From positions 1 to 21,587 of IMG/VR virus record IMGVR_UViG_3300033141_004853: 21,587 nt of DNA; one strand, given 5' to 3'. The stretch comes from a virus. This document shows, one piece after another, positions 1,020-21,300 of the stretch; the first letter of the stretch is position 1, and each line of letters opens with the position of its first letter. The notes under the pieces are model-generated. The model was given only the letters and a program-made list of their open reading frames with translations. It searched no databases and had not been told where the DNA came from. The position numbers were made by a program, and so were the translations under genes.

Positions 1020-1558
1020 AGGCGGCCTGGAAGAAGCTCAACCAGGCCACGGAAAACGTCAGCGACGGTTTGACGGCGGATATTAACACCTTCGCCCTGG
1101 CTTACGGGACTACTTGGTCCTCGGCGGCGCAGAACCCGGCGAACAAGCCCGCTTCGGGTGTCGTCACCCTGCCGGCGGAGGCTTCCTACGTGTTGCTCAT
1201 GTTCGCCATCGCCGATACCGCCGGTGATGAGTGTACGGCGGTGCTCTGGGGCTGGGACGCCAACGGCCCGGCGTTCGACCTGTTGCGCTTCAGCCAGATT
1301 CAGGCGGGAACCTCGCCGGTCGAGACCGACCCGACCAACGGCGAATCCCTGTCGAACTTCTTCTACGCCGATACGCTGGCGATCTCCACGGACAATACCC
1401 GGGGCGGTGAATACGACGTGACCAACACCGACAACGGCATCGCCGTCGTCAAGTTCGACACCTTCGGGATTCAGTATCTGTTCATGGATTACGACTTCGA
1501 CGCTGCCAGCGGTACGGCGGGCACCGATTGCATCACCTGGTACAAGATAGCGCCATGA
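1016..1558 (+). CDS. Hypothetical structural protein, 180 aa (TTG start)
   Basis: The frame begins at TTG 1016, overlapping the previous stop by four bases (TTGA), with a G-rich stretch (998-1005) as a weak ribosome binding site. No ATG occurs before residue ~60, so either TTG is used by coupling or ribosomes enter from the upstream gene by a -1 shift at the G run. The protein has a short helix (AWKKLNQATENV) and then a beta-rich body with many aromatic and Asp residues (LWGWDANGPAFDLLRF, YLFMDYDFDAAS), which suggests a compact virion domain. It ends with an ATGA overlap onto the portal gene. Family not recognised; the coding call rests on length, composition and tight packing. Confidence 0.6.
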   Translation: MKAAWKKLNQATENVSDGLTADINTFALAYGTTWSSAAQNPANKPASGVVTLPAEASYVLLMFAIADTAGDECTAVLWGWDANGPAFDLLRFSQIQAGTSPVETDPTNGESLSNFFYADTLAISTDNTRGGEYDVTNTDNGIAVVKFDTFGIQYLFMDYDFDAASGTAGTDCITWYKIAP

Positions 1559-3501
1559 CCATTGCAGCATCCCGCAGCTTGGAAGAGTTTGAGACGGCCG
1601 GTATGGAGCCCGTCGGCGCGGCGTCCGCGCAACCGCCGGAGCAGGAGGCCCGCCAGTTGGCGGCCAAGGAACTCCGCGAGCGTATCGACCGCATGGTAGT
1701 GGAATCCCGCCAGCAGCGCGACGCCCTCAAGGGTCGCTACTGGCTGCGCAGCCTGCGCTACTGGGCCGGTCGGCAGTGGATTGACCGGCGGGGCCGCAAG
1801 CGGCGCGGGAAGAACTGGACCGAGGCGGTCGTCAACGAGATTCACCCGGTCGTCGAGCAGAAGGCGGCCATGCTCACCGAGAACAACCCGCGCGGGGTGT
1901 TCCTGCCGGTGGACAACAGCGACGTGCGCTACGCCCAGGACCTGGAGGCCATTACGATGGCCCGGGTGCGGCAGATGCAGGGCCGGACGCACCTGATCCG
2001 CGCGGCCCATAACCTGATGTTGTTCGGCTTTTGTGTGACCAAGGTATTCTGGGACGACACCCTCAGCGGCCAGGCGGACGTCGGCTGGTATCTGGTGCCC
2101 CCGCGGCAGTTCATTATCGACCCGTTGGCCACCGGTATTGATGACGCCGAGTACGTCGGGCTCGAGCGGATGGTGTCTCTGGACTACTGCAAGCAGCGCT
2201 GGGAGGAGTTCGCCGAAGAGCTGGACAGGCAGGCCCGCACGCAGGATATGGATACCGCTCTGGAGAGCTACCCCGACGCCGATACGCTTGAGGAAGAACT
2301 CGGCCATACCACGCGGCGGCAGAGCTACGACGTCGAGCAGCACCTGGAGAACCGCACGGTGCCGATGGTGCGGCTGGTGGAGATGTACTACCGCGACTAT
2401 ACCACCAAGACGGTAGAGGTGGCGATCCCCTTCGAGCAGCTCAAGCGGGACAAGACCATCGTCCAGAACGCCGGCGGCCAGTGGGTCTATCGGGAAACCG
2501 GCCGGCCCTACAGCGTGCTGAACGCCCCGCGGACGGAGGTGGAGGTTCCCGCCTACCCGGAAGGCCGCCTGACCATCAAGATCGGCGAGGTGATCGTCGA
2601 GGATATGCCCTGGGAAGGCCGCTGGCCGTTCGCCTTGGGCGTCAATACCCCGGTACCGCACCGCTGGTACGGCCTGCCGGAGGCGGAGACCTTGATCGAG
2701 CGGCAGGACATCCTCAACGATACCGTCAGCAAAATCGAGGACCACGCGAAATTGGCCCTGCATCCGCGACGCAAGGTGGAGATGGGCGCTCTGGCCGACC
2801 CCAAGAGCCTGCGGAATACGCCCGATGCGGTCATCAAGGTGAACGACGGACGCTCGAACGGGGTTAGTTGGGAACCGGCCCCGGAGATGCCCGCCACCGC
2901 CTGGAACCTGGTGGAGTTCTGCCGCGGCAGTATCGAGAACATCTCCGGCCTGCCGGCGGCCACCCGCGGGCGGCAGTTGCCGCGCTCGGCGACGGCGACG
3001 GAGATCGCCACCCTGGACCGTGCCGGTCGCGGTCGGGTGGGAATGGTCTCCGCCCTGTTCGACGAGTATATCGCCCGGCTGTTCTTCCTGACCGCCCAGG
3101 CGATCCAGAAACACTACGAGCCCGACCGGATCGTGCGGGTCGTCGGCCCCGAAGGCCAGGTGACCGCCGTCCAGATGTCCGAGCAGATCAAGCGCGTCAA
3201 GTACGACGTGACCGTGGAGGCGGGCAGTACCCTGCCGTTCGACCGTCAGGCCCGCAAGGCGGACGCCTTGAGCTTATACAACGTACTGGGTGTGGCGTAC
3301 CTGCCGGAACTCCTGGACGCCTACGAGGTCAAGAACAAACAGGAAGTCTTGCAGCGCTACCAGTTGTGGCAGATGTTCCAGCAGTATGCCCCGCTGTTGC
3401 AAGACCCGCAGTTTCAACAGCTGGCGGCCCAGTACGCCGCGGCCCGCCGGCAGCAGCAACCGCAGCAAACGCAAGGGCAGGAAAATGCCGTTCGTCAGTG
3501 A
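1555..3501 (+). CDS. Portal protein
   Basis: This 648-residue protein would form the dodecameric ring at the capsid vertex through which DNA is packaged and ejected. Size and layout fit podovirus-type portals (P22/SU10-like). An N-terminal helical stretch with Arg/Lys and Trp (RYWLRSLRYWAGRQW) is followed by the typical TEAVVNEIHPVVEQKAAMLTENNPR segment in two parts (residues ~85-115), then LFGFCVTKVFWDD and VPPRQFIIDP in the wing/stem region. A long clip/crown segment and a Gln-rich helical C-terminus (LLQDPQFQQLAAQYAAARRQ) complete it. ATG 1555 is preferred over the in-frame TTG at 1528 because it makes an ATGA overlap with the upstream stop and gives no spurious leader. The downstream scaffold and capsid genes support the assignment. 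Confidence 0.88.
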   Translation: MTIAASRSLEEFETAGMEPVGAASAQPPEQEARQLAAKELRERIDRMVVESRQQRDALKGRYWLRSLRYWAGRQWIDRRGRKRRGKNWTEAVVNEIHPVVEQKAAMLTENNPRGVFLPVDNSDVRYAQDLEAITMARVRQMQGRTHLIRAAHNLMLFGFCVTKVFWDDTLSGQADVGWYLVPPRQFIIDPLATGIDDAEYVGLERMVSLDYCKQRWEEFAEELDRQARTQDMDTALESYPDADTLEEELGHTTRRQSYDVEQHLENRTVPMVRLVEMYYRDYTTKTVEVAIPFEQLKRDKTIVQNAGGQWVYRETGRPYSVLNAPRTEVEVPAYPEGRLTIKIGEVIVEDMPWEGRWPFALGVNTPVPHRWYGLPEAETLIERQDILNDTVSKIEDHAKLALHPRRKVEMGALADPKSLRNTPDAVIKVNDGRSNGVSWEPAPEMPATAWNLVEFCRGSIENISGLPAATRGRQLPRSATATEIATLDRAGRGRVGMVSALFDEYIARLFFLTAQAIQKHYEPDRIVRVVGPEGQVTAVQMSEQIKRVKYDVTVEAGSTLPFDRQARKADALSLYNVLGVAYLPELLDAYEVKNKQEVLQRYQLWQMFQQYAPLLQDPQFQQLAAQYAAARRQQQPQQTQGQENAVRQ

Positions 3502-4896: not shown

Positions 4897-5910
4897 ATGG
4901 CTGTAACACTGAACGTTGACCAACTTACCGCAAGCACCCAGGAACTTTACCTGCGCAGCGTCGAGGACCAGGTCCACGACAGGATACCCTTGGTCTATCG
5001 GCTGCGGCGCATGGGTAAGGTGACGGTCGGCGGGCGCAAGATCAGTAAAAACGTCCGCTACGGAAAGAACACGCAGACCCAGCTCTACATCAAGGGCGAA
5101 ACGCTCAACAGCGGCCGGGAATCGAAGCGCGACCTGGCGAGCTTCGAGTGGGGTCTGACCCAGGTGCCCATCAAGTACGACGTGGACGATGAGATTCAGA
5201 ACAACGGCGCGACCCAGATCGTCGATACCATCGCCGACGAGGTGGCCGCCGCCCAGGAAGACATGATGGATAAGCTCTCCGAAGTCTTCTACGGCGACTA
5301 CGACGGTGATGGCAGTGTGGATGACACGTCCAGCACGGACACCAAGGGCGTCCTGAGCATCAACGCTGCCTTGCTGTACACCACCAGTAAGGGCGGGGTG
5401 GCCACTTACGGCGGTATCAAGCGCACGGCTCTGTCCGATTGGTGGGTGGGCAATATCGACGACGGTTCCACGGTGGGAGCGGCCACCACGGTCAGCTTCA
5501 ACCAGTGGGACTACATGGTTGATAAGTGCCTGCAATACCGCGGCGACCGCCGCAATCTGATGGCGATTACTGGCAGCGCCCTCTACCGCAAGTGGAAGTC
5601 CCTGGTCCGCAGCAAGGAAGGCGACTTGAAGATGGACGGCATGATGGCCAAGGCCGGGTTCGCCGCCTTCAGTATCGACGGGATAGAACTGGTCTTGGAC
5701 GACAACGTGCCGAGCGGCTACTTCTACATGCTCGATTTGAGCAAGTGGGAGTGGCGGATCAATTCCAAGCGTAATTTCAAGATCACCGCCTTCAAGTGGC
5801 AGGGCGAGAACAACAATGGCGTCGATGAGTATCTGGCCCGCGTCCTGCTGGCGCACAACCTGGTCTGCTGGAAGCCGCGGGTGAACTACATCGCCACGAA
5901 CATGAGCTAA
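4897..5910 (+). CDS. Major capsid protein (HK97-fold type)
   Basis: 337 residues, directly after scaffold, with a strong ribosome binding site. The N-terminal region (ELYLRSVEDQVHDRIPLVYR, then KVTVGGRKISKNVRYGKN) looks like the N-arm and E-loop of HK97-fold capsid proteins. The middle helix (IVDTIADEVAAAQEDMMDKL, residues ~108-127) resembles a spine helix, and the C-terminal Trp-rich strands (WEWRINSKRNFKITAFKWQ) fit the P-domain/A-domain end. The fold is inferred from position and pattern. A striking DYDGDGSVDD segment (residues 134-143) matches most of an EF-hand-type calcium loop. No N-terminal delta domain or prohead protease site is seen, in keeping with a separate scaffold. Confidence 0.85.
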   Translation: MAVTLNVDQLTASTQELYLRSVEDQVHDRIPLVYRLRRMGKVTVGGRKISKNVRYGKNTQTQLYIKGETLNSGRESKRDLASFEWGLTQVPIKYDVDDEIQNNGATQIVDTIADEVAAAQEDMMDKLSEVFYGDYDGDGSVDDTSSTDTKGVLSINAALLYTTSKGGVATYGGIKRTALSDWWVGNIDDGSTVGAATTVSFNQWDYMVDKCLQYRGDRRNLMAITGSALYRKWKSLVRSKEGDLKMDGMMAKAGFAAFSIDGIELVLDDNVPSGYFYMLDLSKWEWRINSKRNFKITAFKWQGENNNGVDEYLARVLLAHNLVCWKPRVNYIATNMS

Positions 5911-7505: not shown

Positions 7506-8144
7506 ATGGGAACCCTGACCCGCGCGCAGATGAACAGCGAGGTCGCCACGATCATCGATCGGACCGACCTGACCAGCGAAATCAATACCCGCCTGCAATG
7601 GGCGCTGGACGCAGTGGCCGGCCGGTTTCCTTGGAAAGTCCTGGAGGCGACGGATACTTCCCTGTCCTGCGCCGACGGGACCAAGAGCTACACGATCCCC
7701 TCGTCCTTGCGCCAGGTGCGTTCGGTGCGCTATATCAATGGGACCGACAGCAAATTACTTTTGTACCAGGACGTGGACGACTTCGACGAACAGCATCCTT
7801 ACCCGGAAGGCGACGATGAGGGCGTCCCGGAGATGTGGACCCGCCGGGGCAGCAAAATTGAGTTGTATCCTATTCCCGGCAGCGACGAGGACGGCAACAG
7901 CCTGTATCTGACGGGCACGAAATGGCCCACGGCCTTCAGCGGCGACAGCGACACGTCCGACCTGGAACGCACGTTGGACGCGGCGATCGTCTACGAGGCG
8001 GCGGCCATGTGCTTCGAGTTGCTCCAAGAGGTGGAGGACGCCGCCTACTGGCACCGCCAGGCCGACCGGGTGATCGACGAGGCGAAAGACGCCGAAGAAC
8101 GGTTCCGCAATCTGTATCTCGGGATGATACCGGAGGACTTGTGA
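7506..8144 (+). CDS. Head-tail adaptor (neck) protein
   Basis: 212 residues. The helical N-terminus (LTRAQMNSEVATIIDRTD, then INTRLQWALDAVAGRFPW) leads to a small beta domain (LPSSLRQVRSVRYING; GSKIELYPIPG; LYLTGTKWPT). A C-terminal helical pair follows (AAIVYEAAAMCFELLQEVED, then a Glu/Arg-rich helix). This matches the adaptor proteins of podoviruses (P22 gp4 / SU10 adaptor / T7 gp11 type), which bind below the portal and carry fibres and nozzle. Gene order (head genes before, fibre and nozzle after) supports it. Start ATG 7506 follows AAGGTGG. Confidence 0.7.
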   Translation: MGTLTRAQMNSEVATIIDRTDLTSEINTRLQWALDAVAGRFPWKVLEATDTSLSCADGTKSYTIPSSLRQVRSVRYINGTDSKLLLYQDVDDFDEQHPYPEGDDEGVPEMWTRRGSKIELYPIPGSDEDGNSLYLTGTKWPTAFSGDSDTSDLERTLDAAIVYEAAAMCFELLQEVEDAAYWHRQADRVIDEAKDAEERFRNLYLGMIPEDL

Positions 8145-8145
8145 G

Positions 8146-9207
8146 ATGGCGAATGTGAACGCCTCTGAAGATGATTGGTACGAAGATGCCCCTGACCACA
8201 GCACCGGAGAGATAAGCTACGGTGACGACGAGATAAGATACCTGCGGATGGCGGTCAGGTCCCGCCTGGAGAAGGAACACCTTACTCCTGCGGGCAGCGG
8301 TGCCGGAGGCGAGCACCGGGAAGGCTCGGCCAAGATTTGGACGGCCACCAGCGCCCCGACCACCCTGCCGGACGGTTCGACCTCCATTACCGGCAACGAG
8401 GGTATCGCCGAGGGGATGGTCTGGACGGATACCGGCAACGACTACGTCTGCCAGGTGTATGCCGGCGGTGCTTGGCATGATTTGGGATATGTCAAGAGTT
8501 CTCTGACGCTTTCCAGCGGCAACGGCTGGACCGTCACCAACAACGGCACCGGTGATATCGCCAATCTGACCAATGCCTCTACCGGCGATGGCATCGGCCT
8601 TACCAACAGTTCCACCGGTAAGGGAATCAATCTTACCAACTCGTCCACCGGTAACGGTATCGTCATCGCCAATAGCGGCGGCGGTGATGGCATCAACATC
8701 AACAATACCAATGCCGATAGTCAGGGTATCGTTATAACCTCCGGCGGGGCCTCCAACAACAAAGGAATCTGCATTGCGCATACGGGCGCTACGGGCAACC
8801 CGGCGGGCTTGGTGATTAGTGTCTCCGATAGTGGTGCGGCGGGAACGGGAATCTCGATTTCAGCGTCCGACGCAAGTAGGGGTGTACTGATAAGTAGCAC
8901 CAGCACTACAGAGGCGGTTCATATTGACCACAGCGGCAGCGACAATGCCGTGGGAATAAAGCACAGCGGCATTGGCACGTGTGTGCTGGCTCACGCTACC
9001 GGGGGTAGCCATCCGGTGATCAGCGTGACATCAGACGGTTCGGCCAGCGGCCCGTCCTTGAAATTGGATAATCAAGTTAATGCCGCTCACATTCGCTTTA
9101 CAGGCGATCCTTCTCCGGCCTCCCCGCAAGACGGTGATTTCTGGTTCGACGGAACCGACCTTAAGCTGAGAGTGGGAACGACGACTTATACCATAAGCAA
9201 GACATGA
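8146..9207 (+). CDS. Tail fibre protein with 11-residue beta repeats
   Basis: 353 residues, starting one base after the adaptor stop. The N-terminus (GEISYGDDEIRYLRMAVRSR, then EHLTPAGSGAGGEHREGSA) resembles the virion-anchoring start of podovirus fibres, with a D-E-I-R-x-L-(K/R) helix and a Gly/His linker. Residues ~138-285 are a run of I-x-L-x-N-S-x-T-G-x-G repeats forming a beta-helical or triple-beta shaft. The C-terminus (PQDGDFWFDGTDLKLRVGTT) is the common GD-x-W-x-DGT-x-LK-x-R-x-G fibre ending. It overlaps the next gene by ATGA. Predicted role: side fibre bound at the adaptor/nozzle. No separate receptor-binding head domain is visible, so host recognition may rely on another protein. 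Confidence 0.75.
   Translation: MANVNASEDDWYEDAPDHSTGEISYGDDEIRYLRMAVRSRLEKEHLTPAGSGAGGEHREGSAKIWTATSAPTTLPDGSTSITGNEGIAEGMVWTDTGNDYVCQVYAGGAWHDLGYVKSSLTLSSGNGWTVTNNGTGDIANLTNASTGDGIGLTNSSTGKGINLTNSSTGNGIVIANSGGGDGININNTNADSQGIVITSGGASNNKGICIAHTGATGNPAGLVISVSDSGAAGTGISISASDASRGVLISSTSTTEAVHIDHSGSDNAVGIKHSGIGTCVLAHATGGSHPVISVTSDGSASGPSLKLDNQVNAAHIRFTGDPSPASPQDGDFWFDGTDLKLRVGTTTYTISKT
8557..8727 (+). repeat. Tandem 33/36-bp repeats in the fibre gene
   Basis: Five clear units begin with ATC at 8557 (36 bp), 8593 (33), 8626 (33), 8659 (33) and 8692 (36). Each encodes about eleven residues of the type I-x-L-T-N-S-S-T-G-x-G; more diverged units continue to about 9000. Units two and three are nearly identical in protein (GLTNSSTGKG / NLTNSSTGNG). 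Unit gain and loss could change shaft length. Confidence 0.8.
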
Positions 9208-11030
9208 GACGCGCCCAGACTATTCCCATACCGATGCCCGACCGGGGCGTGGACCTGTCCAACCCGGAAACGCAACTGGACTTGCGCTACGCCGCCGACG
9301 CCGCCAACTGCCGCTACGATTACGGCGTGGTCGGTCCCCGCGGCGGCCTGCGCCGCATGGGGGTCGGCAGCGGCACGGCCATGCCCTTCACGGGAGAAAT
9401 CCCCCTGAAGCTGGCGACCTTCTACGACCTGAACGGCACGCAATACTTTCTGTGCATCACCGATACGCACATCTATAAGTACGATTCCGTCAACGATAAG
9501 TGGGACCGCTGTTACGACGGGACCAACACCAAGGCGATAAGCAATGTCACCGCAGATAACCCCGCCAAAATAACGACCTCGGCGAACCACGGCTTGACCA
9601 CCGGCGATTACGTCTATATCTCCGGTATCGTCGGGGACGTGGGCGACTTATTGAACAACAAGGAATTCGCCGTTACGGTGGTGGACGCCACGAACTTTAC
9701 CGTGGCGGTCGATACTACCGGCAAGACCTACACGTCCGGCGGCACCGTCTATCCTACGGTCAACCTGAGCGGTTCCATCGCCAATCCCGTTTCCACCTGC
9801 CACCATGCCCACGACGGCAGCGGCAGCCTCAGCGCCGATTACTACTTCGTTATTTCCAACGGGGTTGACCCGGTTCTCTACTGGGCCGGTGGGAGCGACT
9901 TCTTCTACGAGTTGACGGACACCGATTCCAATACCCACGTCGCCTTGCAGATTTTCTCCTACAAGGAAAGCTTGATCCTGCTCGGGGCCGACAGCGAGCC
10001 GCACAAGGTGCTCTGGAGCGCCACGGGTACCATCAACGAGTTCGACGATACCACCACCAGCGCCGGGTACTTGTATCTCTACGATACGCCGGGGGAGATC
10101 TCCTGGGGCGGTCTGCTCGGTGACAACCTGGCGGTGGCCAAGGAGGACGCCATCGGCTTTTTGAGCTTCACGGGCAACAGCGACATGCTGTTCCGCTGGG
10201 ATACCGTTCTGCGCGGCGGCGGGCCTATCAAGCCGGGCATGATCGCCATGCTCAAGGACCGCTGGATCATCCTCACGAAAGAGAACGTAGAAATCTGGGC
10301 GGGCGGTCCCAGCACGGCAATGGTCGGAGATGCCATATTCGGCGAGTTGATGGACGAGAGCACCGGTCTGAACTGGGACAACGCCGCCAACGGGCGGGTA
10401 CTGACCGACAAGGCCAACACGCGGGCGATATTCTACGTGCCGACCGGTTCGGATACTTACGCCAAAACGGCCTACATCTACAACTGGCGCAAGGGAACCT
10501 GGGAAATCGACGAGTTGACCTATGCCGTCACCGCCTGTGGGAGCTACAGCAGCTACACCTTGACGACCTGGAGCAGCCTGGCGGGCCTTACTTGGGCCGA
10601 TCTCGCCAATACGACCTGGAGCGACTACGAGGCCACGGAAGGAACGAATATTCCCGTAGTGGCCGACGACAACGGCTACGTCTATCAGCAGACCGTCGCC
10701 GCCAAGGCGGACCATACGACGGTCTTTACACAGAGGCACGTTACCCCGGCGTTCATTCCCGACCGCACGGAGTATCAGGGCCGGCACGTGCGTTATTTAC
10801 GGGTATCGTTCGAGGCCAAGGGCGATTACGTCAAGGTGGAATATTCCACCGACGGCGGGACGACCTGGAACAACATCGGCACGCAAAGTTTGACCGACGA
10901 CTGGGCTTGGTATCGCTTGGACTTCTCCACGACCGCCCGAAGGATTCAGTTTCGTTTTACCAACGTGAGCGGAGTGTTCTACCTGCGGGAAGTAACGGTC
11001 CTGGCCCTGCCGCGCGGGAGGGCGGCCTGA
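9204..11030 (+). CDS. Tail nozzle/hub protein
   Basis: 608 residues, beginning in the fibre stop (ATGA). The opening (PIPMPDRGVDLSNPETQLDL) and the GGLRRMG strand are typical of podovirus nozzle/tail-stabilisation proteins. Residues ~111-185 (NPAKITTSANHGLTTGDYVY onward) match a small FCCH-like beta-barrel insertion known in phage tail proteins. Next comes a propeller-like series (LLGDNLAVAKEDAIGFLSFT; KDRWIILTKENVEIWAG) and a Trp motif (TWSSLAGLTWADLANTTW). A beta-sandwich finishes the protein (VEYSTDGGTTWNNIG). It should form the ring that closes the tail and opens for DNA ejection. The nozzle name is inferred from layout. Confidence 0.7.
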   Translation: MRRAQTIPIPMPDRGVDLSNPETQLDLRYAADAANCRYDYGVVGPRGGLRRMGVGSGTAMPFTGEIPLKLATFYDLNGTQYFLCITDTHIYKYDSVNDKWDRCYDGTNTKAISNVTADNPAKITTSANHGLTTGDYVYISGIVGDVGDLLNNKEFAVTVVDATNFTVAVDTTGKTYTSGGTVYPTVNLSGSIANPVSTCHHAHDGSGSLSADYYFVISNGVDPVLYWAGGSDFFYELTDTDSNTHVALQIFSYKESLILLGADSEPHKVLWSATGTINEFDDTTTSAGYLYLYDTPGEISWGGLLGDNLAVAKEDAIGFLSFTGNSDMLFRWDTVLRGGGPIKPGMIAMLKDRWIILTKENVEIWAGGPSTAMVGDAIFGELMDESTGLNWDNAANGRVLTDKANTRAIFYVPTGSDTYAKTAYIYNWRKGTWEIDELTYAVTACGSYSSYTLTTWSSLAGLTWADLANTTWSDYEATEGTNIPVVADDNGYVYQQTVAAKADHTTVFTQRHVTPAFIPDRTEYQGRHVRYLRVSFEAKGDYVKVEYSTDGGTTWNNIGTQSLTDDWAWYRLDFSTTARRIQFRFTNVSGVFYLREVTVLALPRGRAA

Positions 11031-11333
11031 ATGGAAAAGCAGACGCCGAGAAGTTACCGCCTGCCGGTGCTGATGGGCAACCTGACGGAGGCCTGGCGGA
11101 TACTGGCGACGGAACTGCGGGAACTCGTCCGCAAGCTGCGGAACGACCTGGACAACGGCAGCATGACCTTTCCCCGGCGGGACGTGGCGGGTATCGCCAA
11201 CGTCGACAGTGATGATTTCCACTGCGAAAACAACGAAGCGCAAATACGGTTCTACACGGACACGTCCGACGGCGACCGGACCTACCTGGTGGTCCGTCTG
11301 GAAGGAACGTTGAAGAAGGTCGAATTGACCTGA
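11031..11333 (+). CDS. Small tail-associated protein, 100 aa
   Basis: ATG 11031 follows the nozzle stop with no gap (TGAATG), so re-initiation is likely. The N-terminal half is helical and charged (LTEAWRILATELRELVRKLR). The C-terminal half is a beta strand set (AQIRFYTDTSDGDRTYLVVRLEG), ending KKVEL, and resembles the short strands that close fibre shafts. It may trimerise or attach to the tail tip. Family not recognised. Confidence 0.6.
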   Translation: MEKQTPRSYRLPVLMGNLTEAWRILATELRELVRKLRNDLDNGSMTFPRRDVAGIANVDSDDFHCENNEAQIRFYTDTSDGDRTYLVVRLEGTLKKVELT

Positions 11334-11346: not shown

Positions 11347-13128
11347 ATGGGTTGGTTTTCCGGCAGCAAGCCGAAGGTGAAAGTACTCCCGACGCTCAGT
11401 CCCCATCAATACCATTTCGGGATGCCTATCCTGCTGAGCTACCTGACCGGCGGGCAGTTCAAGCCCAGCGAGATGGGTAATATCTACGACCTGATTACGG
11501 ATATCCGCGAGGGACGGTTCGACGAACTTCCCTGGCTGGACCCGAAACGCTACGTCTATCAAGGCCCGCGGGTGGCGGAGTTGACCGGTACCCAGCAATC
11601 TCTACTGGGCGAGGCGGCCGGGTTGACTGGCAATATCGCCAACCCCTTGACGGACTACGATACCGCCGTAAAGAACGTCTTGGCCCGCCGAGGATTGGCT
11701 GGCGAGCCGGTGGGTGAGCAAGGCCCCGAACGCGTCACCGCCCGTACGGATACCTACATCCTGCCTTCGCTGGTTTCACCCTTGGGCCAAGTGTCAAACT
11801 CGCCCGTCGCCGAGAGTAACGACGTAGGGGCCGACAGTGAGCAACTGAAACGCCGCTGGCGGCTGCCGGGGTTCGCCACCGGGGGCTATCTGCCACGCGG
11901 CAAATCGGCGGTGGTCGGTGAGCGCGGCCCGGAGACGGCGATACCGGTCAACCCGCTCATGCAGCAGACCCGCCAGGCGGCCGGTCGGGCCTTGAGCGGA
12001 AGACCCTCGGTACAGGTCAACCCGCAGACCACCGAGCAGTATATCCAGAAGGCCATCGCCGAACCGCTCCGCAAGCAATACGCCGAGAACACCCGCTGGG
12101 CGGTGCGGGGCGCTTACGCCGGGCCGGGGTTCTGGGGTTCCTCGCGGGCCAAGGCGGAGACCAAGGCGGCCCAGGATACCGAACAGCAAATCGCCGCTCT
12201 GGCGGCCCAGGCCCGCTACGCCGACGAGCAGGCCCGCCGGCAACTGGCCGAATCGGCGGCCAACCGCAGCCTCCAGGCCATCCCGACGGCCCTGAACGTC
12301 CAGCAGAATCCCTTGATCATGCAGCAGATGGCGGCCAACACGGAGGCCACACGGTTCGCCACCGAACGCGGTCGGGCACTCCTGCCGGGCGAAATTGGCC
12401 AGCAGCAGGCCCGCATCGAGCAGACATTGGCCAACGTCGGCCTGACCACCGAGCAGGCCCGGCGCATTGGCGGGTTGATCCAGCAAGACCTCGCCCAGAC
12501 CGGACGCATCCAGGCGGATACCATCGGCGCCTTGGAACGGGCGGGCCTGACCCGGGCGCAGATCGACCAGGTGAAGGCCAACACCGCCGCGACCGATATC
12601 AGCACCCTGCTGGCCAGCCAGGCCGGTCGCCAGCAGGTTATCGCTTCGCAACTGGACAACCTGGCCCGGGCGATGGAACTGGCCGGCGTCGAACAGGCAC
12701 AGAACCAGCGGGTGATCAACGCCGAGATGGCCAAGTGGCTGGAAGAAAACCCCAACCTGCTGAACACCTTCATGGACTTCATGAACATGACCCAGCAGAC
12801 GGCGGTGGGGATTCCAGGCACGGAGGGGATGGGCGGTAGTCTGATAAGTGCAGGCGGGCAACTCGCAGGGGCGGCTATTATGGCGGCAATGCTTTCGGAC
12901 GAAGTACTAAAAGAGAACATTGACTATATTGGTACTACTGTCGGCCCATTGCCTGTAGCAATTTGGCGCTGGAATCAGCTTGGTGAACGAATTAGCGGAA
13001 AATCCGGCTGGGAAATCGGGTTCATCGCCCAGGATGTGCAACGTATTTATCCGCAGGCTGTTTTCACGGGGCCGGATGGTTTTCTGCGAATCAATCTGAA
13101 TGAACTCGCAAATTGCTTGAGGAATTGA
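11347..13128 (+). CDS. Helical virion protein with tape-measure-like motifs and C-terminal S74 chaperone
   Basis: 593 residues. Two VGExGPE motifs (residues 122-128 and 190-196, the second followed by TAIPVNP and preceded by GGYLPRGKSA) are a signature otherwise seen in tape-measure and related tail proteins. Residues ~210-490 are a long Ala/Gln/Arg/Glu-rich helical region. Residues 517-593 look like an intramolecular chaperone of the endosialidase type (peptidase S74): S517-D-E-V-L-K522, then W-R-W-N, GFIAQDVQRIYPQAV and DGFLRINLNEL. The Ser and Lys five apart match the family's self-cleavage dyad, so cleavage before S517 is predicted. Codon use becomes AT-richer from ~12830. Likely an internal or tail-tip protein; the combination is unusual. 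Confidence 0.7.
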   Translation: MGWFSGSKPKVKVLPTLSPHQYHFGMPILLSYLTGGQFKPSEMGNIYDLITDIREGRFDELPWLDPKRYVYQGPRVAELTGTQQSLLGEAAGLTGNIANPLTDYDTAVKNVLARRGLAGEPVGEQGPERVTARTDTYILPSLVSPLGQVSNSPVAESNDVGADSEQLKRRWRLPGFATGGYLPRGKSAVVGERGPETAIPVNPLMQQTRQAAGRALSGRPSVQVNPQTTEQYIQKAIAEPLRKQYAENTRWAVRGAYAGPGFWGSSRAKAETKAAQDTEQQIAALAAQARYADEQARRQLAESAANRSLQAIPTALNVQQNPLIMQQMAANTEATRFATERGRALLPGEIGQQQARIEQTLANVGLTTEQARRIGGLIQQDLAQTGRIQADTIGALERAGLTRAQIDQVKANTAATDISTLLASQAGRQQVIASQLDNLARAMELAGVEQAQNQRVINAEMAKWLEENPNLLNTFMDFMNMTQQTAVGIPGTEGMGGSLISAGGQLAGAAIMAAMLSDEVLKENIDYIGTTVGPLPVAIWRWNQLGERISGKSGWEIGFIAQDVQRIYPQAVFTGPDGFLRINLNELANCLRN

Positions 13129-13132
13129 AGCT

Positions 13133-14209
13133 ATGCCTTACATGCCATTTCTAGGGTGGGCGCCTTATCGGCGGAATCCTATCGGTCGGGGAATAGAACA
13201 GGCTGCCGAGGGTATCGCCGGGGGAATAAGTGATGCGGCCTTGTGGAAGTTCCGCGCGCAGGAAAGCGAGAAAGAACGCACGAGCCGCGAAAAGCAAGCC
13301 AAAGAAGAGCGCAAAAGTCGGGAAAGACAAGCCGAAGAAGACCGTAGAATCCGCGAGCAACGGTATAAAAATCTCTACGACTTGGGGGAGCGCCAGCTTG
13401 GAATTGAAGAACGACGACTTGGCATAGCTGAACAGGACAATCTCGCCGCCGAACGCTGGCGACGGATGAATTTCTGGAATCAGTTTCAGAACAACGCCGT
13501 TAATTTCGGCATAAAGGCGGTGCCGGTGGATAAGCAGCCAGAGTACTTCCAGAAACTGGCAGAGTTGGGGGCCGGGATATTGTCGCCGGTCTTTTCGAAT
13601 ATCACACCAACAAATCTTCTGAACAATTACAACGAAGCCCTCGGCAAAACCCCCATCAACGACCCCACTAACGCCGTCATCGACAACCCCTTGCGCCAGC
13701 AGGCCCGTCAGACCAAAGCGGTGCTGCAAAAGCAGGCCATGGCGCCGGGACCGAACGTTACGGAAGAAACGGCCAATCCGCTGGTGGCGCTCGGGGAGAT
13801 GATCGGAATGCTCGGCGGGCCGCAGGCGCCGGTCAATATCCAGCCGGAAGTTTCTGCCCCGGATACGACCGAGATGCGACCGCAGGATTTAATCAGCTTA
13901 CGCCGCCAAATTGTCCAAGATATCAGCGATACTCAAATCGACTTGACCAATACCAAGGCCCCGCCTGATCCTGCTACACGATTCCGCCTGCAAAGACGAT
14001 TGGAAAGTCTCAATCAACAATTAGAGGCGATCGACAGTCGCTTGGGAATAAGCACCGGCCCGGAGGAACCGGTAAAGACCGCTGAGGAAGCGATTCGGCG
14101 TATCGTGCGGGAGGGGGCTGCCCGCAAGGTGGACATCAGCAACCTCGGACCGGTGGAGCGTGCTGTCTTGCGTGATTGGCTCCAACGGCACAAGGAATAC
14201 CAGCAATGA
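13133..14209 (+). CDS. Helical internal virion protein candidate, 358 aa
   Basis: Starts four bases after the S74-protein stop. The N-terminus is hydrophobic and Gly-rich (IEQAAEGIAGGISDAALWKF). It is followed by a dense charged coiled coil (residues ~40-115; Glu, Arg, Lys, Gln), a mixed helical middle, a Pro/Gly linker around residues 215-250, and a second helical part (LQRRLESLNQQLEAIDSRL, then EEAIRRIVREGAARKVDI). It lacks any enzyme motif. Place and composition fit the set of ejection proteins stored in podovirus heads (compare T7 gp14-gp16 or P22 gp7/16/20 in role only). Its first ~550 bp are AT-richer than the rest, continuing the composition of the upstream S74 tail. The stop overlaps the next start as ATGA. 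Confidence 0.6.
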   Translation: MPYMPFLGWAPYRRNPIGRGIEQAAEGIAGGISDAALWKFRAQESEKERTSREKQAKEERKSRERQAEEDRRIREQRYKNLYDLGERQLGIEERRLGIAEQDNLAAERWRRMNFWNQFQNNAVNFGIKAVPVDKQPEYFQKLAELGAGILSPVFSNITPTNLLNNYNEALGKTPINDPTNAVIDNPLRQQARQTKAVLQKQAMAPGPNVTEETANPLVALGEMIGMLGGPQAPVNIQPEVSAPDTTEMRPQDLISLRRQIVQDISDTQIDLTNTKAPPDPATRFRLQRRLESLNQQLEAIDSRLGISTGPEEPVKTAEEAIRRIVREGAARKVDISNLGPVERAVLRDWLQRHKEYQQ

Positions 14210-17200
14210 CCACGGCTTTGGACCTGCTGCAAGAATCAATAACCGAGCCCAATGCCGTTCGCCAGCCCCGGACGGCATTGGATTTACTGCGTGCTGAACC
14301 TGACCTTGAGCTTTCCTCTCCGGAAGTGGACCAGCCGGTCCAACCGACGCCTCAAGGCCCCTCACTCTGGCAACGGGCCAAGCACGCCCTGCGCCGCGCC
14401 GTTTCCCCGCTGGTGCCCGAGATGACCGATTGGGAGCGGGCCAGTCCATCCTTGCCCCCTCGCAGCCAGTGGAGCTTTCGCACCGCCGCCACGCCGACCA
14501 ACCTCTACAATCCTTTGACGGCCCAGGCCCAGGCCGAGGCCGCCTTCTTCGAGAGCATTACGCCTCGAAAGCCGACTCCCTACCAGATGCCCCGTACGAT
14601 GCCCCTGCCGCCGCGTGGCGAGCCGAAACCGCCCAAACCCTGGGAAAGTATCGTCCCCATCCCCCAAGGCGCTGACGAACGGCTGGCGGGCTATATTGAG
14701 TACTTCATGGAGCTACCGAAACTCCCACGAGCGGTCATGCTGGCCGGGGCTCGCCAAGGCGACCTCTACGGTGCTTTGAGCTACCTGTCCCGCAAGGGCC
14801 TGCTGCCGTTCGACGTAGAGAAAGGCGACGCCGCCAAGGCCAAGGAGGCCGCCGAGTACGTCCAACAAAAGCTCAACGAGGCCGACCCGGTGACTCTGGA
14901 GCGGGCCTTGGGCATCAGCATGGGCGGCGTGAAACTCCTGACCGAGTTCATGGCCCCGGCGAAGCTGGCCGGCAAGGGCCTTAAGGCTTTAGGTATTTTA
15001 GGCAAGACAGGCAAGGCGGCTACCAAGGCCGAGGCGATTCTACATGGGGCGGGGACTTTCGGGCTGCACGAGGCCATGCAGGCCCCGCGGGAAGGCGAGA
15101 CCGTCGCTCAGCGGGCTCGTGGAGTTCGCGGCTCGGCCTTGACCGGCGGACTGTTCGGAGCGGGAGCGGCCCTGCCGGCCAAGGCCCGGATACCTGCAGC
15201 GGTCGGCGGATTGATGGGGGCCACTTACGCCGAAACCGGTGATATCGACCAGGCCATTGAGACGGGCATCTTAGCCCTGGGCCTGGAGGCTTTCGGCAAC
15301 GTCGGGCGGATTGCCGATGTGGTCAAGCAGCGGGTCCGCAACCGCCTGGCGGGCAAGGCGATAACTCCGGCACGCGTCAAGGCCGCCGTGAACGCCGAGG
15401 AATTACAATTGCGGAGGGACATCACCCGGGCGAAGGCATACAAGGCGAAACACGGGGTCTTTCCGCAGGATATCCTTGACAAGTACGTTCTCGGCAAGCA
15501 GCCGGGGACGGCCAAAGGCAAGCAGGCCCGCAAGCCCATCGTCACGCCCCCGCCAAAGGAGACGGCCCTTGATTTGGTAAGGCCGCCGAAGGAAGCCAAA
15601 CAACCCGCAGCCGTGGCAGAAGTGCCGAAGCCTCACCTTCCAAAGGAAAAGCCCGCAAGGGTAACAGTTGAGCCATCGGCAAAAGCGAAAACCCTTTCGG
15701 AGCCTATGACTCGGGGAGAGGTTGAAGCAAGAGAAATAGGGCCAGCAGAAGGTCAGTTGAATAATGCCAAACGACTGAAGAAGTTGACTTGGAAGAAACT
15801 CAAGCTGTTACGCGAACAGCTAAAGGAAGAACCGCTAGGAGGCAATCGCCACAGACTAGAATTAGAAATCTTGCGAGCCAAGGAAGACCACCAAGAAGCC
15901 TTGCGCATGGAGCGTGAGGCCAAAAAGGCAATCGCCAAACGCAAGGCAGAATTAGGATTGACTGCGCAGAAACCCGCCGAGCGTACCGGGGCGGAGATCC
16001 AAGAACCGGCGATGCCCCGGGAAAAGGCGGGCAAACAGCCGTGGGAGATGTCCGAGGAGGAAATTAAGGCGAAGTTCCCCAACCCACTGGGAGATGATGA
16101 AGTCCGTGAGGCCTGGATGATGCCAGCAGAGTATTGGGCAGGGTATGAAGCCGCCGTCATGCAACAATCGCCCAGACCACCATCGGCAAGGGCAAAACAG
16201 TGGCACAAAGATCAAGTGCGGGATGCTCTCGTTGAAGGCAAGCCCGTCCCCGCCGAAGTCCTGAAAGACTACCCCAACTTGGCCAAAAAATACGGCAAAG
16301 GTCCCGCGCAACTTGGCAAGAAACCCTCTGTAACTCGGCAACCTGCCAAGTTAGCAAAACAACCGCAACCTGAGACAGCACCAGAAGTTACGAAACCGGC
16401 ACCCGTCCAGCCTCCTGCGCAACTTGGCACCGAAGCGGGCGCAACTCGGCAGCCTGCCAAGTTGGAAAAGACAGCCTCCCAAGTCGTCATTTCGGAATCT
16501 GACCGCAGGCAAAACGAAGATTTTGCCCGACGGATTGAAGCCATTTTATCCGAACAACAATATCGTGGTAAGCCAGCGGTGGCTTCCTACCCCTACATCT
16601 GGGTGCGCGATGGTCTTTTTAGATATGATCCGCTTACGCGAAGGTTGAAGCTGCTACATCCTTATACGAAGGAAGGAATTAAGCGAGCCATAGAAGATAA
16701 TTTAGACCCTTCCGGCGCTTATAGTTCTTACAACCAAGCCGCCAAAGACCTTGTAGAAAAGATAAAAGCCGAGCGCGAAGAGCGGCAGCGGCAAGAATCG
16801 CAAGCTGAGGCGGAATATTTTGCGGAACTAGGGCGGCAAGGCGAAGAACGTTATCGGCGTATCCAAAAGTTGCAAGAACTAGCTCGCTCACGCCGATTCA
16901 AGAAGCAAACTATTGCTCTTGCCGTACCTGAAGGGGAAGCCCCTCTCAAGGCGACCGGTCAGGCTTACAAGGGCCTGATGGTCCATCATCCAGAAGGAGA
17001 GGGTTTACCAGAAAAAAGCCGACAAAAGTGGCAAGTGACACATATCAATAGCGGTCTTCGCGTATCTCCACTGTTTGATACGCGTAAAGAGGCGAGAATG
17101 TTTGCTATTCGTCTGGCCGACCGGTTTGATATGACGCGCCCGGCGGAAGAAGTCAAAAATAATCAAGATATTGCCAAGGCTATCCGAGCATTAGCAGAGG

Positions 17201-19920
17201 ACGTTTACGCCGAATTGCCTTCCATCAAGAGCGTGGCGACAGAGACACAGAAAACTTCCAAGGCCAAAACGTCCCCGCGCGAAAAACCGAAGGCCACCAA
17301 GCCGAAAAAGACTGCGGCCCCTCCTAGCAAGCTTGTTAATCTTCGGGCCAAGGGCGGCACCACCCTGATAACCGATATGGCCGAGGAAATCGCCGGGACC
17401 GTCAAACGCGCAACGTCAGCCACGTGGGGGGTAACTACTGGTGGCAAAGAAGTCGCTCATCGACTGTTGGGCCGTGGAACACGGTGGATGGAGCGATTGG
17501 GCGAAAGCGGCAAGAAAATCGCCGACGACATCCGCCATGTGGATATGCGAGCCGCCAAGCGCGCGGCAAACAATGAGTGGGACGTACGCAAGTTATTGCA
17601 CGGCCTGAACAAAGCCGACCGTGAGTTGGTTGCTAAGCTGATCAACTATACCGCCGGTGGCAAGAGCAAGCGTGTCATTTCCAAGAAGACACTTTCAAAT
17701 ATACCAAAAGCCAAACTGGAGCGGCTGGCGAAGCTGGCTGCCGAATTGCGAGACATTCTTGACCGCGACATGAACGAGGCGGCCAAGTTGGGCATGACCC
17801 GCAAGACCAGCAAAGGCAGGATACCGGTCGGCGGGCGGGGCGAGGCATTCCCGCAGGTGCCCAATGCCGAGGGGCGTCGGGTGCTGGAAGAAGCGGAAAT
17901 CCGCGGCCTAGCTTCCCCGCGAGTGCGGGAAACCGCCGAGAAGATGGTGGAAAACGGCGTAGCGCCTGATATCAATAAAGCCCATGTCATGCTTCGCAAC
18001 TATCGCCAGGCCATGATGCGTGGCGTGAATCCCTATTTTGAAAGAATACGGGCGGTCCTGCCGCCCAGCCTGGTGGAATGGGATCCGGTTAAAGTATTGC
18101 CGAAGCTATTCATGCGCAACGCCATGACGGTTGAAGGCGTTCGTCAATGGGGCAACAACTTTGAAGCATTGCGGCCGCTGATTGACCAAGTAGGAACCGA
18201 GGCAGGCGATCCTGCTTATTCTTACCTTATAGACCGCTATATCAAACAGAATTTCGATGTGGGCGGCATGGTCCCCAAGGTGGACAGTCGCGTTGCCGGG
18301 GCCATCAGCAATTACGAGACTTTAGCGCGGCTGGGCGGTAGTCTGTTGAGTGCCATGCGGAACATGGGTCAACGTTTCACGAATACCGTGAAATATCCTC
18401 TCTCCGTCCAACTGAAAGCCCTGAAAGATTTTCCGCCGATTGCCAACGTCTTTATGAAAAATGCCCAGTCGCTCAAGGAAAAAGTTGAGCGTACCGGGGC
18501 GGTCAGGTCGGCGACGGTTTTGAGCGAGCTGGAGAATATCGCTCCGGGCCATCGGATAACCGCCTTGAGCATGATGCCGTTTACCAGAGTTGAGCGTGGT
18601 AATCAGATTCATACTGCACTTATGGCCGGTTATGGTCTGGAACGCGATTTGGAACTACTCGCGTCCCTGGAAAATAAAGGCAGGTTGCGAACAGCAATAG
18701 ATGCCCTTCTTTCTCTCGGCGACAAATCGCCTGCGGCTATCAGGCGGAGGCTCAAATCGTCGGCTCTGTCCGATATGACCGATGAGCAGTTGATTCAGGT
18801 CTTAAGGGACAACAACGGCAAGATAACGCCTCAGCAGTTGCAAGAGGCCATGCATCGCCTGGTTGCCGATGCTCAGTTCCCGCAAACCTTGGTGACGAAG
18901 CGAATATGGTGGGACAGCCACCCGTGGGCCAGGTTGCTGATGAAATTCAAGCCTTTCGGGTTAGAGCAGGTAGGTTTTATTTATCGCTACGTGGTCAAGG
19001 AAGCCAGCAAGGGTAATTTCGCCCCCTTGGTGCGATTCGTCATCTGGACGACCCTGATGGGCGAGATATACAACATTCTGCGCGACAATCTGGTCGGTGA
19101 CAACGAGTCGGTTTTTTTCAAGCTGAAAGAGGGCTCGGAGAAGAAAAAGGTCATATACCATTTAGCCAAGGACTTCGCCGACGGTGGGGGAGTGGGGATT
19201 CTGGCCGACTTGATATGGGGGATAGGCGACATGCTGGGCGGGCCGGTGTACAGCACCTTGAAGAATGCCGGGCGCGCGGTGGGTGACATCGCCCGCGACC
19301 CGCGGGCCAAGCAAGTCATCATGTCGCTGCGCGATTTCTTCGGTCGGGAGATATCGGTATCCCGGCAATTACGGGGTTTTATGAACCGACTGGACCGCAA
19401 AATCTTAAACGAGAACAATCGCTACTTTGAATATCGCAAGTGGCGCCAGCGGGCCTATGAATACAAGCGAAAAGACGAGAGGATCGCCGATAAATTCAAT
19501 CGAATCATTCAGGGCAAGTCCTCGTTCGAGAGAACGGAAAAGACCTCCAAGTACGAGTACGCGGCCCGCCAGATAACCGCTGGCGATCTCCGCGATGCCA
19601 TGGATTATCTGGTGCTCTTGATGGAGAAAGCGGAAACGCCGGAGGAACGCCGGGAGATCATGCGCGGCCTCAAATTGAGCATGAAAGCCAAATCACCGCT
19701 CGGCCCGGTAGCCAAGGCCGATCGGCGGGAATTCCTCTCGCAGTTCAGCGAGAAAGAAAGAATGGAAGCTCGTGCCTTGCAGAACGCCTGGGAACACGAC
19801 TACCGCAGAGCCATGACTGCGGCGGCCAAAAAGGCCTGGGGCTACGTGCCTATGGTCGGAAGCCGCACGACCCGCGCGCGTCCTCGCCGTCCTAGTCGCC
19901 CGCGGCGGGTTCGGCGCTGA
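14206..19920 (+). CDS. Giant polyvalent-type internal/ejection protein, 1904 aa
   Basis: ATG 14206 overlaps the previous stop (ATGA) and is preferred to TTG 14176. TALDLL motifs occur at residues 3-8 and 23-28, and TALDLV at 453-458. Residues ~229-380 are Gly/Ala-rich and hydrophobic, with possible membrane-inserting helices (AVGGLMGATYAETGD). A Lys/Pro linker and coiled coil (~516-585) follow. Then come WHKDQVRDALVEGKPVPAEV with DYPNL (666-692), a type seen in phage polyvalent proteins; a duplicated AQLG...TRQPAKL linker (701-753); and a W-x-VTH-x-x-SGL module at 942. The C-terminal half is helical, with HPWARLLMKFKPFGLEQVGF (1572-1591) recalling LPD38-type domains, a hydrophobic segment (~1607-1625) and an Arg-rich tail. 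No lysozyme, transglycosylase or polymerase motif was found. Predicted role: DNA ejection or early host takeover. Confidence 0.72.
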   Translation: MTTALDLLQESITEPNAVRQPRTALDLLRAEPDLELSSPEVDQPVQPTPQGPSLWQRAKHALRRAVSPLVPEMTDWERASPSLPPRSQWSFRTAATPTNLYNPLTAQAQAEAAFFESITPRKPTPYQMPRTMPLPPRGEPKPPKPWESIVPIPQGADERLAGYIEYFMELPKLPRAVMLAGARQGDLYGALSYLSRKGLLPFDVEKGDAAKAKEAAEYVQQKLNEADPVTLERALGISMGGVKLLTEFMAPAKLAGKGLKALGILGKTGKAATKAEAILHGAGTFGLHEAMQAPREGETVAQRARGVRGSALTGGLFGAGAALPAKARIPAAVGGLMGATYAETGDIDQAIETGILALGLEAFGNVGRIADVVKQRVRNRLAGKAITPARVKAAVNAEELQLRRDITRAKAYKAKHGVFPQDILDKYVLGKQPGTAKGKQARKPIVTPPPKETALDLVRPPKEAKQPAAVAEVPKPHLPKEKPARVTVEPSAKAKTLSEPMTRGEVEAREIGPAEGQLNNAKRLKKLTWKKLKLLREQLKEEPLGGNRHRLELEILRAKEDHQEALRMEREAKKAIAKRKAELGLTAQKPAERTGAEIQEPAMPREKAGKQPWEMSEEEIKAKFPNPLGDDEVREAWMMPAEYWAGYEAAVMQQSPRPPSARAKQWHKDQVRDALVEGKPVPAEVLKDYPNLAKKYGKGPAQLGKKPSVTRQPAKLAKQPQPETAPEVTKPAPVQPPAQLGTEAGATRQPAKLEKTASQVVISESDRRQNEDFARRIEAILSEQQYRGKPAVASYPYIWVRDGLFRYDPLTRRLKLLHPYTKEGIKRAIEDNLDPSGAYSSYNQAAKDLVEKIKAEREERQRQESQAEAEYFAELGRQGEERYRRIQKLQELARSRRFKKQTIALAVPEGEAPLKATGQAYKGLMVHHPEGEGLPEKSRQKWQVTHINSGLRVSPLFDTRKEARMFAIRLADRFDMTRPAEEVKNNQDIAKAIRALAEDVYAELPSIKSVATETQKTSKAKTSPREKPKATKPKKTAAPPSKLVNLRAKGGTTLITDMAEEIAGTVKRATSATWGVTTGGKEVAHRLLGRGTRWMERLGESGKKIADDIRHVDMRAAKRAANNEWDVRKLLHGLNKADRELVAKLINYTAGGKSKRVISKKTLSNIPKAKLERLAKLAAELRDILDRDMNEAAKLGMTRKTSKGRIPVGGRGEAFPQVPNAEGRRVLEEAEIRGLASPRVRETAEKMVENGVAPDINKAHVMLRNYRQAMMRGVNPYFERIRAVLPPSLVEWDPVKVLPKLFMRNAMTVEGVRQWGNNFEALRPLIDQVGTEAGDPAYSYLIDRYIKQNFDVGGMVPKVDSRVAGAISNYETLARLGGSLLSAMRNMGQRFTNTVKYPLSVQLKALKDFPPIANVFMKNAQSLKEKVERTGAVRSATVLSELENIAPGHRITALSMMPFTRVERGNQIHTALMAGYGLERDLELLASLENKGRLRTAIDALLSLGDKSPAAIRRRLKSSALSDMTDEQLIQVLRDNNGKITPQQLQEAMHRLVADAQFPQTLVTKRIWWDSHPWARLLMKFKPFGLEQVGFIYRYVVKEASKGNFAPLVRFVIWTTLMGEIYNILRDNLVGDNESVFFKLKEGSEKKKVIYHLAKDFADGGGVGILADLIWGIGDMLGGPVYSTLKNAGRAVGDIARDPRAKQVIMSLRDFFGREISVSRQLRGFMNRLDRKILNENNRYFEYRKWRQRAYEYKRKDERIADKFNRIIQGKSSFERTEKTSKYEYAARQITAGDLRDAMDYLVLLMEKAETPEERREIMRGLKLSMKAKSPLGPVAKADRREFLSQFSEKERMEARALQNAWEHDYRRAMTAAAKKAWGYVPMVGSRTTRARPRRPSRPRRVRR
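16306..16463 (+). repeat. Duplicated 47-bp unit carrying inverted 9-mers, inside the giant gene
   Basis: Units 16306-16352 and 16417-16463 are 111 bp apart and encode AQLGKKPSVTRQPAKL and AQLGTEAGATRQPAKL. In each unit AACTTGGCA (16310, 16421) is followed by its exact reverse complement TGCCAAGTT (16344, 16455), so each could fold into a hairpin. The duplication keeps the reading frame. Confidence 0.7.
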
Positions 19921-20310: not shown

Positions 20311-21165
20311 TCAAAACGCCTCCTCGATTCGCTCATCGTATTCTTCGGCGGCCTTCAGGTACCGTTCGGTCGTCTGTAAGTGGCTGTGCCCCAGCCAAGC
20401 TTGCACGTTACGGATGGGACAAACGCGGGCCACGCGGGTCGCGTAAGTGCTGCGCAGCCCGTGGAACAAACTCCCTGCTCCACCGGTGGTTCGCTGTCGA
20501 AAAATATGCGGCAAGGCCCGCTTGAGCCGTGCCCCGCGCTGATAGAGCAGGCAAAGACTCGCCGGCCGCTGGCGGTCACGTGCTGCCGGTACTACCGGGC
20601 CGGCATCTTGTCGCAGGGGCCGCAAAATCTCCGCCAATGCGTTGGGGATGGGCACCCGCCGTTGCTTGCCCCCCTTGCCGTGCCGAACCGTGACCATGCG
20701 ACCGGCCAAATCAACATCCTCCCAGTAAAGTAGCCGTGCTTCGTTGGCCCGCAGGCCCAGATAATAGCACAAGGCCACGAACGGCCAAAGTTTTACTTCT
20801 CGGGCCACAGAGAAAATCTCAGAAATTTCCAAGTCATTATAGCAGACTATCGCTGGCGGCGGAGGCTGGCGCAATGGTAGTCGCCCAACGGGATTAGCGA
20901 CTATTTCCCCACAACGCAAAAGATAGTTGCCAAACGCTCGGATTCTCCCTAAATAGAGATAAATCGTAGCGCCACTGAGCCCTCGGAGTCGCAAATGCAG
21001 CCAATAATCGCTAATTTTGGCCTCCGTAAACTGCTCAAGGTAAGCAATCCCCTCCTCACGACAGAATCTTCGCACCATCCATGTCATAATCCGCGCATAC
21101 ATTTTACTGGTGCGCGCATACAAATCGGCTTCCCAGCGGTTGATCAATGGTCCGATAGGCTTCAT
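20311..21165 (-). CDS. int: Tyrosine integrase/recombinase
   Basis: 284 residues from the ATG at 21165. A core-binding helical domain (PLINRWEADLYARTSKMYAR onward, residues ~1-100) is followed by the catalytic domain with all six residues: R139 (GLRANEA), K164 (GKGGK), H235 and R238 (HGLRST), H260 (LGHS) and nucleophile Y269 (ERYLK). It cuts and rejoins DNA at att sites to integrate or excise the phage. These positions are all about nine below those of XerD, which supports this start. The frame stays open to ATG 21297, but that start would lie 4 bp after a -10 box and across the control region. It is encoded opposite to the structural genes. Neither start has a strong ribosome binding site. 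Confidence 0.88.
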   Translation of the reverse strand: MKPIGPLINRWEADLYARTSKMYARIMTWMVRRFCREEGIAYLEQFTEAKISDYWLHLRLRGLSGATIYLYLGRIRAFGNYLLRCGEIVANPVGRLPLRQPPPPAIVCYNDLEISEIFSVAREVKLWPFVALCYYLGLRANEARLLYWEDVDLAGRMVTVRHGKGGKQRRVPIPNALAEILRPLRQDAGPVVPAARDRQRPASLCLLYQRGARLKRALPHIFRQRTTGGAGSLFHGLRSTYATRVARVCPIRNVQAWLGHSHLQTTERYLKAAEEYDERIEEAF

Positions 21166-21185
21166 GCCCTCTTTTTCGGTCCTAC

Positions 21186-21197
21186 CAAAAATTTTTG
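21186..21197. promoter_or_regulatory. Perfect 12-bp AT palindrome in the integrase leader
   Basis: CAAAAATTTTTG is a perfect palindrome 21 bp upstream of the integrase ATG, followed by further A/T runs (to 21220) that would bend DNA. It may be an operator, an accessory-protein site or part of the attachment region; which of these cannot be told from the sequence. Confidence 0.35.
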
Positions 21198-21221
21198 TCA
21201 CTTTTTTTCGAATTTTTACTA

Positions 21222-21249
21222 TTGACCCCGGCTGAAAATGCCGTATATT
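21222..21249 (+). promoter_or_regulatory. Sigma70-like promoter reading right
   Basis: TTGACC (21222-21227; five of six consensus bases), a 16-bp spacer, and TATATT (21244-21249; five of six). Transcription would start near 21256 and read into the partial gene at the right edge. Confidence 0.5.
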
Positions 21250-21300
21250 TCTAATAGTTGCTCGCGAAACATGAGTGTTTTTGTTCAGGTTGCACATACA

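Follow-up and report, generated by a model that had tools for sequence, protein, structure and literature searches.

What is a self-cleaving S74 domain doing at the end of a helical phage protein? In beta-fibres (and in MYRF), such domains are currently viewed as sensors of folding that depend on a trimer. The window analysed here is the whole 21,587-nt stretch of IMG/VR record IMGVR_UViG_3300033141_004853, a 21.6-kb linear virus record that is a metagenomic fragment, and one of its genes (11347..13128, + strand) encodes a 593-aa protein that ends in an S74 domain and that we describe as a putative ejection protein. An in-frame GTG at 11338 provides an alternative start, giving 596 aa. The initial annotation, made from the sequence alone, read the product as a trimeric coiled-coil ejection needle or tail-tip rod with tape-measure-like motifs, matured by autocleavage.

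The S74 domain on this protein is genuine. The Pfam profile PF13884 (Peptidase_S74) matches residues 517-572 over profile positions 1-57 of 58, scoring 37.7 bits where the cut-off is 22, with an E-value of 2.5e-9, and the signature first noticed in the sequence is present in full: the catalytic motif S517-D-E-V-L-K522 (SDxxxK; 12895..12912, + strand) with its Ser-Lys dyad intact, followed by GFIAQDVQ and DGFLRINL. The short S74/ICA domain occupies residues 517-593 (12895..13125, + strand), and the predicted cut between residues 516 and 517 would release a fragment of 77 residues, as had been anticipated. It is the sole S74 domain found in the record. In the profile alignment, with residue positions counted on the printed alignment, S517, D518, K522 and G558 fall on MYRF S578, D579, K583 and G626. 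In MYRF, changing S578 or K583 to alanine blocks cleavage, and the same change at D579 or G626 markedly reduces it (PMC3742443).

The predicted structure of the domain agrees with this assignment. When it was compared with 809 re-aligned PDB chains, the top three were all S74/ICA domains, namely MYRF 7dc3 (Z 4.4, rmsd 2.3 over 63 residues), 3gud (Z 3.0) and 3gw6 (Z 2.9), with the best unrelated chain at 2.2. A Foldseek search with the same model gave an E-value of 0.058, which is weak alone, and a phmmer search of the full protein against the PDB returned no meaningful match. Matches of the A1 profile, which also finds S74 structures, to SUMO chains were rejected as spurious, those chains lacking the motif region. 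The window protein thus has the fold core, Ser-Lys dyad, Asp and Gly of the endosialidase and neck-appendage chaperones and the MYRF ICA (3GW6, 3GUD, 7DC3), but its carrier is not a beta-helix fibre and the trimerising C-terminal helix is missing.

What precedes the domain is equally unlike a fibre. Residues 226-485 (12022..12801, + strand) form an Ala/Gln-rich region (32% Ala+Gln) that is predicted to be helical, being nearly all helix in a full-length AlphaFold model, as first proposed; the mean pLDDT of that model is 39.6, a low confidence, and we therefore make no claim on the shape of a rod. Two PHROG profiles, each covering a helical part plus an S74 domain together, match this architecture: phrog_4287, 'DNA ejection protein', over residues 237-588 (E 3.5e-7, to which the S74 domain itself contributes part of the score), and phrog_6121, 'virion structural protein', over residues 270-589 (E 6.1e-6). 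Both were built from other phages and leave the N-terminal ~230 residues of the window protein uncovered.

That N-terminal part holds the two VGExGPE motifs that had suggested a tape measure. A motif scan places the first at residues 122-128 (11710..11730, + strand) and the second at residues 190-196 (11914..11934, + strand), the latter within a tape-measure-like FATGGYLP...VVGERGPETAIP stretch. Four tape-measure PHROGs do match this stretch with their C-terminal part, two of the four at E < 0.01, and the top match is to phrog_30701, a family of unknown function. It is nevertheless very improbable that the protein is the tape measure of a long-tailed phage and ends in S74, since the VGExGPE stretch alone points there and the rest of the record points to a podoviral head-tail gene set. 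Judging from its P22/SU10-type portal (1528-3501, Pfam/PHROG profile match), its SU10-type adaptor (212 aa, 7506..8144, + strand; PF24175, E 3e-21) and its neck genes, the record has the layout of a podophage, and the record ORFs searched include none recognisable as a tail-tube or sheath gene. A SU10-type capsid protein is also encoded (4897-5910; phrog_9953, 2.9e-29, with a Pfam score just below the cut-off). Moreover, VGExGPE was found in none of the other proteins among 1,701 ORFs of at least 120 aa from the loci fetched by then, other S74 carriers included, which makes the motif a peculiarity of the window protein.

From the adaptor onward, the gene order is adaptor, 353 aa, neck, 100 aa, S74, 358 aa and 1914 aa. 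The 353-aa ORF (8146-9207) has repeated TNxSTGxGI-type units and no family match among Pfam and PHROG profiles; it looks like a fibre or decoration protein. The neck/tail-tube-B-like protein (608 aa, 9204..11030, + strand; phrog_3287, E 2.6e-25) stands upstream of the S74 gene in the same order as in relatives, and its homologues precede the S74 gene in five of the loci collected (L006, L023, L105, L115 and L123). Between the two lies a 100-aa ORF (11031..11333, + strand), at a place often taken by an acyltransferase in relatives. Past the S74 gene, the 358-aa ORF (13133..14209, + strand) and the 1914-aa ORF (14176..19920, + strand) would be the second and third genes of a putative ejection block. 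The former has no family or relative in Pfam, the PHROGs or neighbouring ORFs of relatives' loci, and the latter no detectable relative in the PHROGs, Pfam, cultured phages or relatives' loci, so the ejection block of the window is assigned by position. Near the right end, a tyrosine integrase (20311-21297, - strand; PF00589, E 2.7e-22) suggests a temperate phage.

Direct relatives of the whole protein, the neck protein or the portal were absent from the matches listed among viral contigs, and a plasmid search for direct relatives found none. The architecture is common: S74 on a helical carrier turns up again in dozens of independent contigs, as well as in cultured phages with complete genomes, so that the pairing with a non-fibre protein, rightly singled out by the initial annotation, is not peculiar to this phage. 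Recurrence on this scale refutes the idea that chance or faulty assembly, in what is after all a metagenomic fragment, had joined to the carrier an S74 domain read through from an adjoining fibre gene; the closest relatives among the matches listed (L011 and L032) share the window's layout, and we regard such an artefact as next to impossible.

In phages RHph_I3_18, phiGT1, Mx8, H6/1 and Octadecabacter DB2, the S74 gene comes after the neck and before the ejection genes. In Pseudoalteromonas phage H6/1, a member of the P22 gp10 family (pfam11134) comes first; a small gene, a pfam11039 gene annotated as head assembly and a hypothetical protein then lead up to the S74 protein, gp17, itself annotated as 'putative ejection protein, pfam13884', and two more ejection proteins and then the tailspike follow. 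Gp17 and the structural proteins annotated as 'peptidase_S74-domain' in Rhizobium phage RHph_I3_18 and Sulfitobacter phage phiGT1 occupy the same slot as the window gene, between the neck (and acyltransferase) and the large ejection proteins, and all have a short S74 with SDxxxK. These carriers differ in sequence from the window protein and have in common with it the S74 domain and a helical, Gly/Ala-rich design. Across the collected loci, ORFs upstream of helical-S74 genes match the same neck families and acyltransferases. The 40 ORFs downstream mostly have no match or fall in unnamed families, with one or a few matching P22 injection translocase, 'DNA transfer protein' or transglycosylase families, and one or a few matching a family described as 'released from the phage upon host infection'. 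Set against the P22 gene order, this arrangement makes the slot of P22 gp7 and T7 gp14 a well-supported assignment for the short-S74 class as a whole. The window gene would sit in that slot by position, and its product probably enters the host by injection and there clears the way for the DNA.

Two lineages link the class to proteins without S74. The first is that of Salmonella phage 7-11, whose 'DNA injection protein', together with its relatives in the Grimontviridae, is likewise a helical ejection protein with a short S74. Its homologue of the SU10/phiEco32 gp22 kind, SU10 gp22 (30% over 241 aa, E 4e-14), is an S74-less orthologue whose sequence ends ...GPWGALAGGVIGGLAST. SU10 virions contain gp20-24, which are gone once the genome has been released (PMC9509320); this places gp22 among the proteins shown to leave the particle. 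The window protein is longer than the 7-11 protein and gp22 and has VGExGPE, and its similarity to gp22 was detected only as a general helical design. In the second lineage, ctMlz233 and ppBjS10J-1 have no S74, and their alignments with S74 carriers reach 4-17 residues before the catalytic Ser (9-16 residues for ctMlz233 against the S74 proteins of RHph, L011 and L020). Beyond the aligned part, ctMlz233 ends after 3-10 residues, with 10 given for those three, and ppBjS10J-1 after 41. The S74-less orthologues, SU10 gp22 among them, thus end about where S74 begins, which marks the domain as an optional C-terminal addition and means that a cut before the Ser would leave a similar end.

These relatives also bear on the needle or tail-tip rod of the initial annotation. 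Its ejection role is supported, and its needle or rod is not, because gene order and the homology of relatives point to an internal or ejection protein. The idea draws on the helical region of the window protein, on the part played by S74 as a trimerising chaperone in fibres and on a gene not far past the neck gene, near which the P22 needle gene lies. However, the PHROGs that match the helical part are ejection and virion proteins, and relatives occupy the gp7/gp14 slot, one of them having as its homologue a protein that the particle loses along with its genome. No needle family matched the window protein. The C-terminal helix that would hold a trimer of the MYRF or endosialidase type is moreover missing, in the window as in the whole short class, which also removes the ground for the trimer that had been proposed. 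A trimeric coiled-coil needle or rod matured by S74 is accordingly improbable.

S74 domains were gathered from IMG/VR by an alignment-based search and then by a pattern that excluded the catalytic motif, and a crude rule based on composition alone divided their carriers into a helical (Ala/Gln-rich) and a beta group. At least about 130 viral S74 domains fall into two classes: short ones on helical carriers from the ejection block and longer ones on beta-fibre carriers. Among the matches listed, the distance from Ser to the end is 62-98 residues with a median of 73 in the helical class (n=80) and has a median of 96 in the beta class (n=41); the difference has a Mann-Whitney p of 3e-17 with each sequence counted as independent, only identical sequences having been de-duplicated and relatives left unweighted. 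Past the last strand, (V/I)(N/D)Y, the median chain continues for 7 residues in the helical class and for 26 in the beta class, again among the matches listed, and the extra C-terminal residues of the beta class make up an amphipathic helix of the type LVPLLIESIKELKQEVEDLKKK. Cellular genomes, taken as a contrast set, gave 92 beta carriers and one clear short helical case (L166).

MYRF trimerises chiefly through its C-terminal helix or coiled coil, and it has to be a trimer in order to be cleaved (PMC8326128). The MYRF alignment of the window model stops at MYRF residue 680, early in helix alpha4, where the model ends; together with the short tail of the class, this means that most of the trimer helix is missing in the window protein and the class alike. 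It follows that the short domain may have no activity, or may be triggered in some other way. On the former reading, S74 has been kept for its fold, as a stable C-terminal docking or folding module that stays uncut in the virion; it would account for the loss of the helix that MYRF needs for activation and for the domain's position inside a longer chain in some related proteins.

Conservation argues against that reading. Because the search for the first set of loci had used the motif, we discounted the SDxxxK conservation seen there and repeated the analysis with a motif-free set. In that set, among the matches listed, Ser, Asp and Lys are kept in 31/31 helical and 12/12 beta S74 domains, and Ser and Lys are invariant in 84/84 helical carriers among the matches listed. 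A check made without a profile found S[DN]xxxK within 75 residues upstream in 60 of the 63 distinct matches listed, against 5% by chance; in the other three, it sits in the preceding overlapping ORF. This fixity coexists with low overall identity: in 61 aligned C-termini among the matches listed, with a mean column identity of 29%, no columns are invariant other than S, D, K, G, A and G, and the first four of them correspond to MYRF S578, D579, K583 and G626. Exactly the residues needed for cleavage are fixed, which a purely structural role would not explain. A fold-only domain is accordingly unlikely, though it deserves to be taken seriously; the case that the short class still cuts is good but indirect, and autocleavage of the window protein before Ser517 is likely on the same grounds of conservation.

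As a separate observation on the fibre-type domains, three long S74 domains are each divided, at a common position, between two overlapping ORFs (L138:6956-7225, L048:5331-5591 and L042:499-753). The upstream ORF ends shortly past SDxxLKxNI...NALNRL, and the remainder is an 84-89-aa ORF that starts at or beside the stop. These could be split chaperones or cases of programmed frameshifting.

If the short domain cuts, attention turns to the end that it would expose. Directly N-terminal to the predicted cut lies a Gly/Ala-rich hydrophobic segment (residues 494-516; 12826..12894, + strand) with no charged residue and 52% Gly+Ala; the hydrophobicity of the protein peaks here, in a 19-mer with a mean Kyte-Doolittle value of 1.51. 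Over 81 helical carriers among the matches listed, the 30 residues before Ser have a mean hydrophobicity percentile of 0.91 within their own protein. The class-wide median for the best 19-mer among the helical carriers listed is 0.87, which is moderate and below usual transmembrane values. T7 gp14 has four or five predicted membrane helices and the window protein a single hydrophobic segment, for which reason we file the latter only as an occupant of the gp14 slot and not as a gp14 homologue.

The explanation that best fits these observations, to which we assign a probability of roughly 0.6, is that the window gene codes for a podophage's first ejection (internal virion) protein, with a short S74 domain serving as a self-removing C-terminal cap. 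The domain would cut the chain before Ser517 and so remove itself, and the Gly/Ala-rich hydrophobic segment that it caps would become the new C-terminus. Until the protein is placed in the head, the cap may keep this segment soluble or guide assembly of the carrier. As the domain's own trimer helix is absent, the trigger for cleavage would likely be the oligomerisation of the carrier itself. The cut would give the protein an end of the type seen in the orthologues that never carried S74, and the freed segment may then act on membranes. T7 gp14, water-insoluble alone, is kept in the core by gp15 (PMC8954989), and a removable cap could, by analogy, meet the same need.

The internal position of S74 in a few relatives (L055, L058 and ct7L0027) is at odds with a simple C-terminal cap. 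In L055:5255-9583, L058:5795-10240 and L155:7176-10733 (phage ct7L0027), the domain lies mid-chain in an ORF of 1,185-1,481 aa, behind an ejection-like N-terminal part. More than 1,000 residues follow it in L055 and L058, and a transglycosylase SLT domain follows it in ct7L0027. If such an internal domain cuts, a fused ejection polyprotein would be split. A more general proposal, which we put forward tentatively and hold to be rather less probable than the cap, is that these are stripped-down S74 proteases, incapable of trimerising by themselves and switched on by the assembly of ejection proteins, and that they serve the DNA-ejection machine as a switch for its maturation; the internal domains of ct7L0027, L055 and L058 would then process an ejection polyprotein. 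Another helical carrier (L073:5363-7639) has two S74 domains, with Ser at about 277 and 547.

The presence of S74 on such proteins is already annotated in GenBank (phiGT1, RHph_I3_18, phiM5 and H6/1) and implicit in the PHROGs. In the open-access literature, we found no paper treating S74 on ejection proteins, and the combination is widespread and apparently unstudied. If our reading is true, a large class of S74 domains with fixed catalytic residues and no trimer helix would separate cleavage from its known trigger, and a step of proteolytic maturation would be added to podophage DNA ejection, a machine whose assembly is poorly understood.
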